Below, in pieces: positions 51,819-58,047 of a stretch of DNA of 64,000 nucleotides; the first letter of the stretch is position 1; each line of letters starts with the position of its first letter. The stretch is taken from assembly GCF_007991655.1 (NCBI RefSeq), contig NZ_BJYT01000001.1, positions 372,001-436,000 of the forward strand, read 5' to 3'. A program made the position numbers and the translations under genes. Origin of the DNA: Segetibacter aerophilus. GTDB taxonomy: Bacteria; Bacteroidota; Bacteroidia; Chitinophagales; Chitinophagaceae. The notes under the pieces were generated by a model. The model searched no databases. It saw nothing but the letters and a program-made list of their open reading frames with translations, and was not told the origin of the DNA.

Positions 51819-52147
51819 GCACCTGCCCTCTTACTACGGGTAATGCTATTTTATGTGGTTGGAGGTTTTAGGTTTTAAGATACAAATTATCAAAATTTTT
51901 AAAACAAGATTTTGCTGGCTGAGCAGTTATAGATATTATGATTAGAGAAAAGTAGTCTTTAACGAAAAAGAAGAAATTGTTTAATATCACGGCGAATTTG
52001 CAAATCTTTTACAACTTTCAGCAATAATTCTTTTTAAAATGTTGGATGATAATATGTAACCTCTTACCTTTGCGCTCCCAAATCAGATTAACGAAGGCAA
52101 TAAAAACTATTTTTGAACCTATTAATTGGAAAAACTGGGGATAGATT
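51819..52147. other. 329-bp region upstream of the ribosomal operon
   Basis: It is AT-rich and contains the predicted rpsJ promoter (52042-52072). No open frame, repeat copy or other hairpin was seen. The predicted transcript has about 70 nt before the rpsJ ATG. Confidence 0.5.
52042..52072 (+). promoter_or_regulatory. Bacteroidota-type promoter of the ribosomal operon
   Basis: TTG at 52042-52044, a 20-bp gap, then TACCTTTG at 52065-52072, which matches TAnnTTTG exactly. It lies about 75 bp before the rpsJ start and after the upstream terminator, as expected for the start of the S10-spc operon. Confidence 0.7.
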
Positions 52148-52453
52148 ATGTCTCAAAGAATCAGAATCAAACTACAATCTTACGATCACAACCTGGTAGA
52201 CAAATCTGCCGAGAAAATTGTGAAGACAGTTCGGAGCACTGGAGCAGTGGTTACAGGTCCTATTCCTTTACCAACGCAAAAGAAAATTTTCACCGTACTA
52301 CGTTCACCACACGTTAACAAAAAAGCAAGAGAGCAGTTTCAACTGTGTACACACAAAAGATTGCTTGACATCTATACTTCTTCTTCTAGAACTGTTGATG
52401 CTCTAAGTAAGCTTGACTTGCCTTCAGGCGTTGAAGTTGAAATCAAGGCATAA
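52148..52453 (+). CDS. rpsJ: 30S ribosomal protein S10
   Basis: The protein has 101 residues, the usual length. It begins [20 protein letters not shown] and contains [20 protein letters not shown] and [15 protein letters not shown], which are diagnostic of S10. S10 sits in the head of the small subunit and also acts in antitermination with NusB. It is the first gene of the operon; 271 bp separate it from rplC, far more than usual, and that gap holds the structured RNA at 52550-52693. Confidence 0.98.
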
Positions 52454-52549
52454 GTTGCCTTCCTAATAGGAAAAAACTAAGTTCTTAAAATATCATCTCT
52501 CAATTGTAGGATTACAAAAAAAGAGCGCTGATAAAATAAACAAAAAAAT

Positions 52550-52693
52550 CCTCATCTCTTTTAAAGAGATGAGGGGACATATGAACAAGCCCTTCGAGGT
52601 TTGTTTACCATCGGTACTTCCTCTCTCGCAAGTGAGACACATTGGAAAAGGTCGATGGCAAACGGGGATTGAATTACGCACAGCGTAATGTCC
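52550..52693 (+). ncRNA. Predicted structured RNA between rpsJ and rplC (possible ribosomal-protein leader)
   Basis: Five helices can be drawn by hand. P0: CCTCATCTCTT (52550-52560) with 52564-52574. P1: GGAC (52575-52578) with GTCC (52690-52693), closing the rest. P2: AACAAGCC (52584-52591) with GGTTTGTT (52598-52605). P3: CCATCG (52608-52613) with CGATGG (52653-52658), capped by TCTCG/TGAGA (52624-52637). P4: ATTACGC (52673-52679) with GCGTAAT (52683-52689). P2, P3 and P4 branch from P1. A GGAGG lies 17 bases before the rplC ATG. I know of no named family for it; control of rplC/rplD translation by a ribosomal protein is the likeliest role. Confidence 0.5.
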
Positions 52694-52724
52694 TTGCAAC
52701 ATCGGAGGCTAAAACAAAATAACA

Positions 52725-53342
52725 ATGAAAGGTATTATTGGCAAAAAGATTGGGATGACCAGTATCTTCGGCACCGATGGAAAGCAAACAGCTTGTACCA
52801 TTATCGAAGCTGGTCCCTGCACAGTAACCCAGGTTAAAACTGCGGATACTGATGGTTACACTTCCACTCAGATCGCTTATGGCGACAAAAAAGAAAAGAA
52901 CTCCACTAAGGCCGAGATCAATCACTTCGCAAAGGCCAACACTACAGCTAAACGTGTAGTAAAAGAATTCAGAGATTACTCATTAAACAAATCATTAGGA
53001 GATACTATTACCGTTGATATTTTCACTGAAGGTGAAAGTGTTGAAGTAGTTGGTACTACCAAGGGTAAAGGTTTCCAGGGTGTTGTCAAGCGTCATGGTT
53101 TCCATGGTGTGGGTGAAGCTTCTCACGGTCAACACGATCGCCAGAGAGCTCCCGGTTCTGTTGGTGGATCATCTTATCCTTCACGTGTATTTAAAGGTAT
53201 GCGCATGGCCGGCCGCATGGGTCAGGACAGAGTAAAAGTGAAGGGTTTGAAAATTGTGAAAATTTTCCCTGAAAAGAATTATTTATTAATCAGTGGTTCT
53301 GTTCCCGGCCACAATGGTTCCATCGTTTTAATACAGAAATAA
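52725..53342 (+). CDS. rplC: 50S ribosomal protein L3
   Basis: The protein has 205 residues. It begins [20 protein letters not shown] and includes [17 protein letters not shown] and a [20 protein letters not shown] segment close to the peptidyl-transferase centre. L3 is an early assembly protein of the large subunit. Its start lies downstream of the structured spacer, so translation of this and later genes could be tuned separately from rpsJ. Confidence 0.98.
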
Positions 53343-55520: not shown

Positions 55521-55525
55521 AACAT

Positions 55526-55580
55526 AGTTACCAGTTACGGTTTCCGGTTAACGGCGACTAGTAACGGGAAACTGGAAACT
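55526..55580. repeat. Dyad in the rpsS-rplV spacer
   Basis: AGTTACCAGTTA (55526-55537) and AAACTGGAAACT (55569-55580) pair at 10 of 12 positions. The spacer is built almost only of GTTACC/GTTTCC-like words and ends 8 bp before the rplV start codon. Confidence 0.55.
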
Positions 55581-55588
55581 TATAAAAA

Positions 55589-57890: not shown

Positions 57891-57909
57891 GAACAATAAG
57901 CCGCAGGCT

Positions 57910-58046
57910 GTTAGCTTCAAGCTATAAGCAATATTAGCGGATCAAGCTTTTAGCTAAATAGCTACAAGCCTCTGAAAAAGATTAAGTCAAAAATTTGTTT
58001 ATTGGCTATTAGCAGCAGCTAATAGCTTAAAGCTAAAAGCTAATAA
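57910..58046. repeat. AGCT/TAGC word array with hairpin in the rpsQ-rplN spacer
   Basis: Nearly the whole spacer is made of variants of TTAGCT/AAGCT in both directions. The clearest hairpin is GCTATTAGC (58005-58013), loop AGCA, GCTAATAGC (58018-58026), a perfect 9-bp stem, followed by AAAGCTAAAAGCTAATAA. It ends directly at the rplN start codon (58048). Confidence 0.75.
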
Positions 58047-58047
58047 A

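Follow-up and report, generated by a model that had tools for sequence, protein, structure and literature searches.

A conserved structured RNA between rpsJ and rplC of Chitinophagaceae as a candidate ribosomal-protein leader with a putative boxA

The spacer between rpsJ and rplC of Segetibacter aerophilus holds, with near certainty, a real structured RNA, which in the samples examined is confined to Chitinophagaceae and to this site. Its modules are a boxA, a hairpin (here denoted H1) and a larger body, which adjoins the rplC start and is present in most members. Judged from sequence, a role in the cis-control of the rplC operon is very probable, and our best reading is that the element belongs to a known kind, the ribosomal-protein leaders, as a new family with an unusual combination of parts. 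For the more specific view of a modular cis-acting leader of the rplC-rplD-rplW-rplB... operon that is transcribed with rpsJ and has its boxA bound by NusB-S10, we consider the chances evenly balanced.

In the window, i.e., the whole stretch of 64,000 nt analysed here (contig NZ_BJYT01000001.1), the spacer is framed by the following features:

52042–52072, forward strand: promoter-like site of rpsJ (TTGG at 52042–52045, TACCTTTG at 52065–52072)
52148–52453, forward strand: rpsJ, ORF of 101 aa, ribosomal protein S10 (NusE)
52725–53342, forward strand: rplC, ORF, ribosomal protein L3, first gene 3′ of the element

The Bacteroidetes promoter consensus is TTTG / TAnnTTTG, and TATCTTTGCACTCCC-type promoter-like letters are also present upstream of the rRNA leader. 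S10 of relatives within the family is 91–100% identical to the product of the window's rpsJ. Downstream, rplC is followed by rplD, rplW, rplB and more genes, and tblastn found L3 downstream of the element in the relatives' loci as well. The spacer itself (52454–52724) measures 271 bp and is the longest among the operon spacers compared, the second being rplN-rplX with 211 bp if the listed GTG start is taken; the first-pass annotation had thus rightly called it unusually long. Its further judgement, that the fold is too good for random sequence, held as well, with −76.7 kcal/mol vs −50.5 ± 4.4 in 200 dinucleotide shuffles (z −5.93; 0/200 as good). The spacer was also the most extreme of ten stretches compared (z −5.35). 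rpsS-rplV (55521–55588) came second with z −2.99 and, like rpsQ-rplN (57891–58047; z −2.46), folds somewhat better than shuffles, while the stretch upstream of rpsJ has no advantage over its shuffles (z 1.64). The genome contains one full copy of the element, and a repeat or mobile origin was rejected on this ground.

The 3′ part of the spacer contains these features:

52548–52575, forward strand: variable hairpin ATCCTCATCTCTTTTAAAGAGATGAGGG, which folds in the window, outside the conserved element
52582–52607, forward strand: body helix P2, TGAACAAGCC / GGTTTGTTTA around the loop CTTCGA, sequence highly conserved
52608–52658, forward strand: body helices P3 (CCATCGG/TCGATGG) and P3b (TTCC 52618–52621 / GGAA 52644–52647)
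52665–52694, forward strand: body helices P4 (GGGAT/GTCCT) and P5 (ATTACGC 52673–52679 / GCGTAAT 52683–52689)
52704–52709, forward strand: 3′ tail GGAGGC, often GGGGC in relatives, with a tentative pairing to GCCC of the P2 side

Aligned spacers of relatives contain blocks of invariant letters, and GGTACTTC and GAAAAGGT in the P3/P3b region are invariant or nearly so. RNAalifold on 24 spacers yielded 44 pairs, 23 of them with a two-sided change in at least one sequence. In the 22 spacers from which we built a covariance model of the body (R1), 95.5% of the cells were paired, 15 of the 32 pairs changed on both sides, and covariation reached 0.342 vs 0.160 in shuffles (0/500). The 26 named loci outside this training set gave 96.4% paired cells, again 15/32 two-sided pairs and 0.349 vs 0.168 (0/500), in an alignment that was fitted to R1 and hence leans towards the model, and with related rows that are not independent. 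Support from compensatory changes is strong for P3 (two-sided change in 6/7 pairs of the training set and 5/7 of the other set) and P5 (6/6 and 5/6). It is thin for P2 (1/10 and 2/10), P3b (1/4 in both) and P4 (1/5 and 2/5), three helices with hardly any variation; their pairing is nearly complete where counted, with 97.3% and 99.2% of cells paired in P2 and 100% and 97.7% in P4.

Covariation and conservation in relatives bear out the proposal of the first-pass annotation that a structured element lies between the genes of S10 and L3. Its three arms (AACAAGCC/GGTTTGTT, CCATCG/CGATGG and ATTACGC/GCGTAAT) are real, have conserved positions and pass the check for compensatory changes. The closing helix GGAC/GTCC (P1) fails that check: GGACATAT was found in only 3 of the 24 aligned spacers, so this closure is not conserved, and GTCCT (52690–52694) pairs with GGGAT (52665–52669) instead. 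The hairpin at 52550–52574 folds in the window, but among relatives it varies in length and sequence or is missing, and the stretch with the inner TCTCG/TGAGA hairpin likewise differs in length and sequence from one relative to another. Perhaps the 3′ tail pairs with GCCC of the P2 side. Of 74 rows, 48 offer a perfect 4-base complement, vs a mean of 35.4 and at most 43 in 1000 permutations of the tails; the complement is absent in the window itself and in 15 of the 20 rows with a non-GCCC loop.

To map the distribution of the body, BLASTN was run over 59 genomes and 29 loci of relatives were taken. The best 24 (L005–L028) match rpsJ and rplC in their flanks and have spacers of 253–423 bp; the five weakest (L029–L033, E 0.0018–0.015) have neither gene beside the match. 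A search with R1, as the first-pass annotation had suggested for rpsJ-rplC spacers of other Chitinophagaceae, matched 191 of 294 family genomes at E ≤ 0.01, three of them weakly (G014, G033 and G111, E 0.0025–0.006), and seven listed genomes contained two matches each. All 33 loci checked lie at rpsJ-rplC (30 from the family search, 3 from the class sample, several from genomes already seen). In the class sample, R1 matched 22 of 395 genomes, six of the family and 16 others, and these 16 matches were weak (18.9–24.8 bits) with none near S10 or L3.

Twenty family genomes that lack a strong R1 match have rpsJ-rplC spacers of 70–249 nt, which mostly carry a boxA and a hairpin before rplC. With named genomes added and identical spacers counted once, the family set comprised 115 spacers. 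A letter pattern assigned the body to 74 of them and none to 41, or 75 and 40 after correction for L173, a ratio that is no estimate of frequency since L095 to L104 and other bodyless rows were drawn from genomes missed by R1. L173 counts as bodyless by letter pattern in the boxA and H1 figures; its body was found by R1, so it is body-containing in the tree, terminator and frame counts. Rows were left out as follows: L017 from A1, L017, L018 and L025 from A2 (long inserts), and L087, L153 and L135 from A6 (misaligned); L088, L092, L102, L103 and L157 were left unaligned, and L134 was dropped as a row that lacks rplC. Body-containing spacers are 208–496 nt long. In the other families of the order, the nine readable spacers measure 4–51 nt and have no boxA (seven further matching genomes were left out).

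Upstream of the body, two conserved features had been missed in the first-pass annotation:

52480–52487, forward strand: boxA AGTTCTTA, putative NusB-S10 binding site
52491–52533, forward strand: hairpin H1, outer TATCA/TGATA, internal loop U / CGC, inner CTCT/AGAG, variable tip

An exact copy of AGTTCTTA is located in the rRNA leader of the window's genome (L035, position 40). In the rRNA operon of the same genome, AGTTCTTTGA lies closer to the 16S gene, and the spacer separating 16S from 23S contains AGTTCTTTGACA. AGTTCTT[AT] was present in every rRNA leader that could be read within the family (6/6), compared with one of two outside the family. In the rpsJ-rplC spacers, the strict pattern NGYTCTTW was found in 68/74 body-containing and 27/41 other members; in the first spacer set, boxA was observed in 46/49 and 15/20, respectively, vs 2.4 and 0.3 in mononucleotide shuffles. 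As a bare word AGTTCTTA is not rare, with 5 copies in the 64-kb window vs 3.3 expected, and the evidence is therefore its place and not the word. The strict pattern is absent from 6/74 body-containing and 14/41 other spacers, including the Chitinophaga-type L139, L142, L145 and L149. H1 is present in these four, so boxA is not needed everywhere. They have GGTCGCGCCTTCTGGGCGGCC-like hairpins before H1 in place of boxA.

Binding of this boxA by NusB-S10 is probable, given its identity to the rRNA boxA and the work on E. coli excerpted from PMC5725501 and PMC10931766. The available parts of PMC5725501 report that NusB/E binds boxA and represses suhB translation in E. coli, and give putative boxA sites upstream of rpsJ in three gammaproteobacterial genera and a gammaproteobacterial consensus GYTCTTTAANA. 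Many of our rows fit the start of this consensus, and the link to the S10 gene and a translation-related target other than rRNA are further features in common with the E. coli NusB-NusE boxA/suhB case as excerpted there. As in a boxA site proper, the letters are those of the own rRNA leader and the place is conserved among relatives. In contrast to suhB, the putative boxA lies between rpsJ and rplC, is joined to a conserved folded RNA and belongs to another phylum.

H1 follows a common pattern, in which the outer helix ends with A-U, one base (mostly U) stands opposite C[GU]C, and the inner helix starts with C-G. RNAalifold shows two-sided changes in it. A pairing-maximising search found H1 in 73/74 body-containing and 36/41 other spacers, and with at least 7 pairs in 72/74 and 32/41 vs 6.05 and 0.95 in shuffled spacers. 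Among 11 bodyless spacers, 96.7% of the H1 cells were paired, a percentage partly built in because the finder maximises pairing; covariation was 0.393 vs 0.200 in shuffles (0/500), and 5/11 pairs changed on both sides, which was equalled in 11/500 shuffles. Where the body is missing, boxA precedes H1 in 21 of 36 spacers (with a gap of 15–21 nt in 20 of these 21), and H1 ends 12–20 nt upstream of rplC in 30/36. In body-containing spacers the end of H1 is 139–364 nt upstream of rplC, with the body in between. A covariance model of boxA plus H1 (R2) had matches in 18 family genomes out of 107, each of them at rpsJ-rplC, and in none of the 395 genomes of the class sample; this silence says little, as R2 suits a single clade and fails to detect the genome of the window itself.

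When presence and absence of the body were mapped on an L3 tree of 124 rows, built by a quick method with a single kind of support, two changes were needed vs 38.4 in shuffles. We read this as one gain and one loss, the loss having occurred in a clade of 11, though the change count alone is blind to direction. This bodyless clade includes Ferruginibacter-type rows (support 87, not starred). All its 11 members (L086, L087, L129, L130, L132, L135, L137, L138, L141, L144 and L153) have a boxA 11–13 nt before the rpsJ start, as does L134; no body-containing row has one within 20 nt (0/75), and the window's own rpsJ start lacks it. Because loss of the body and the boxA at the rpsJ start amount to a single event, their coincidence is only a hint. 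The position of this boxA resembles the rpsJ sites reported for Gammaproteobacteria.

Searches against Rfam 15 at gathering scores gave no match in the window, in agreement with the first-pass annotation, which named no family for it, and a relaxed threshold added five chance-level matches (E 0.33–7, far below gathering scores). No paper describing the element was found in open-licence PMC text, a collection outside which many journals, supplements and preprints fall. Like other r-leaders, the element is a conserved structured RNA in an untranslated stretch before a ribosomal-protein gene. Among the 20 r-leaders of 2020, rplC is named only in Archaeoglobi, under the archaeal L4 leader, in the portion of PMC7247131 available. 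For Peptostreptococcaceae, an rpsJ motif has been described (PMC11109978, in excerpt). This motif and the S10 r-leader of Firmicutes (PMC7247131) are S10-linked r-leader candidates as well, but according to the excerpts they belong to the rpsJ 5′ UTR and to other phyla; the element is set apart from them by descriptions, not alignments. Closer in lineage are the r-leader candidates for L13 and S4 in Bacteroidia excerpted from PMC7247131, which share the phylum and are likewise lineage-bound but belong to other genes. The E. coli S10-operon leader, as excerpted from PMC10931766, controls through L4 the same set of ribosomal-protein genes that the element would control. No likeness in sequence or structure between the two was established, and the E. 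coli-type leader precedes rpsJ, whereas the Chitinophagaceae element follows it. Simple comparisons of letters gave no convincing likeness to rRNA: apart from boxA, the blocks of the element match the genome's own rRNA operon no better than expected of blocks so short (judged without shuffles), and a search with the H1 loop returned one local 23S candidate, for which the Rfam LSU consensus has no helix.

How might such a leader work? We propose that boxA would bind the NusB-S10 complex as the rRNA boxA does; if so, S10 left over from rRNA would bind behind its own gene rpsJ. With H1 and the body acting as a clamp folded next to the start of rplC, NusB-S10 could lower rplC translation, and expression of the rest of the operon would fall with it, similar to the effect of NusB-S10 at E. 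coli suhB. The clearest hint at a ligand, boxA, would point to S10 (NusE) with NusB. That H1 or the body lies so near the start of rplC, together with the analogy to suhB, suggests a net effect of repression, a proposition that could go either way; antitermination or protection of RNA polymerase as the net effect is possible but distinctly less probable. For a ligand of the body itself, L4 or L3 would be the first choice, which we hold tentatively. More speculatively, and with more doubt than confidence, a single boxA signal employed twice, by the rRNA operons and again downstream of rpsJ, might let NusB-S10 gauge free S10 against nascent rRNA and set expression of the whole rplC operon accordingly. 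The body would then be a second sensor that the family acquired, and the one clade lacking it would be that with the boxA at the rpsJ start. If true, this would be a direct molecular tie between the synthesis of rRNA and of ribosomal proteins, and boxA control of a ribosomal-protein operon outside Gammaproteobacteria. The balance of rRNA and ribosomal proteins in Bacteroidota is little known, and a conserved leader with the rRNA boxA next to the S10 gene opens this question to experiment. Bacteroidota ribosomes mostly work without Shine-Dalgarno pairing, according to the excerpt of PMC9976891.

The strongest competing reading, which is possible though doubtful, takes L4 or L3, encoded by the first genes downstream, as the protein that binds the leader and boxA as a side feature for polymerase processivity. 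It would fit the constant position of H1 or the body before rplC in the checked loci, the persistence of H1 where boxA was lost, and a different conserved hairpin before rplC in 13/13 Sphingobacteriaceae-type genomes with an rplC-first operon; control of the E. coli S10 operon by L4 (PMC10931766, in excerpt) agrees with it. However, neither the block comparison nor the H1 loop search revealed a convincing likeness to rRNA, and the element stands behind rpsJ, not before it.

In the nut region of lambda, boxA comes first and a hairpin follows. The same order in the spacer, the identical boxA in the rRNA leader and 16S-23S spacer, and the length of the body-containing spacers would suit antitermination, in which boxA and hairpin load Nus factors and let the polymerase pass the spacer and operon without termination by Rho, in step with the rRNA operons. 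We regard this as rather unlikely. The rRNA leader has no H1 by eye, and the element ends beside the rplC start, as does H1 in bodyless spacers; this closeness suits control of translation better. Moreover, the terminators that we found precede boxA rather than follow it. Searching from rpsJ to boxA with a home-made rule, we detected them in 6/75 body-containing and 0/40 other spacers; four of these look strong (L017, L021, L133 and L140), with a terminator-like hairpin and a T run after the rpsJ stop and ahead of boxA, and the other two are weak. In these four spacers, rpsJ and boxA thus need not share a transcript.

Less probable still is that the body is a riboswitch for a small molecule or ion, inserted into a ribosomal-protein leader. 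Its multi-helix fold with many invariant unpaired letters and its occurrence in just a part of the family, which takes two changes on the tree of L3, would allow for this, but the checked loci occupy a single genomic place, always before the ribosomal-protein operon, and no known aptamer appeared at Rfam thresholds. A short translated upstream frame as the conserved feature, in place of RNA structure, has next to no probability: the window offers an ATG and 35 open codons from 52581, but an ATG stands at this site in just 22/74 rows, the frames range from 0 to 57 codons, the loop lengths do not preserve a reading frame and the pairs covary.

Neighbouring families of the class have other elements at these genes. 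In 13 Sphingobacteriaceae-type loci (L207–L219), all inspected by eye, a conserved hairpin GYCTTGARCGAAGCCCTACTGCTTCGATGGRC lies directly before rplC with a promoter-like stretch upstream, and it is a candidate L3 or L4 leader. The 17 Flavobacteriaceae-type rpsJ-rplC spacers (L177, L179, L181, L183, L184, L187, L188, L190, L192, L195–L197, L199, L201, L202, L205 and L206) contain, by eye, an ATGTCC hairpin, then GGAAAAACGG with small variations, and finally a hairpin with a T run that resembles a terminator, which makes this element a likely transcription attenuator. Since Sphingobacteriaceae- and Flavobacteriaceae-type genomes differ in this way, it seems that RNAs of different kinds serve as the rplC leader in different lineages of the class. 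In the same Sphingobacteriaceae-type genomes, none of the 13 rpsJ loci has rplC behind rpsJ within the flank examined, and the three that were read have a terminator-like hairpin behind rpsJ. These 13 and L182 (together L176, L178, L180, L182, L185, L186, L189, L191, L193, L194, L198, L200, L203 and L204) have, in 14/14 cases, a hairpin of 5–13 pairs with a ten-base loop ending in ATAGCTC, located 15–25 nt before rpsJ. It is a candidate S10 leader, and as its closing pair and 3′ CUC recall H1 and boxA, one might guess at a shared ligand.
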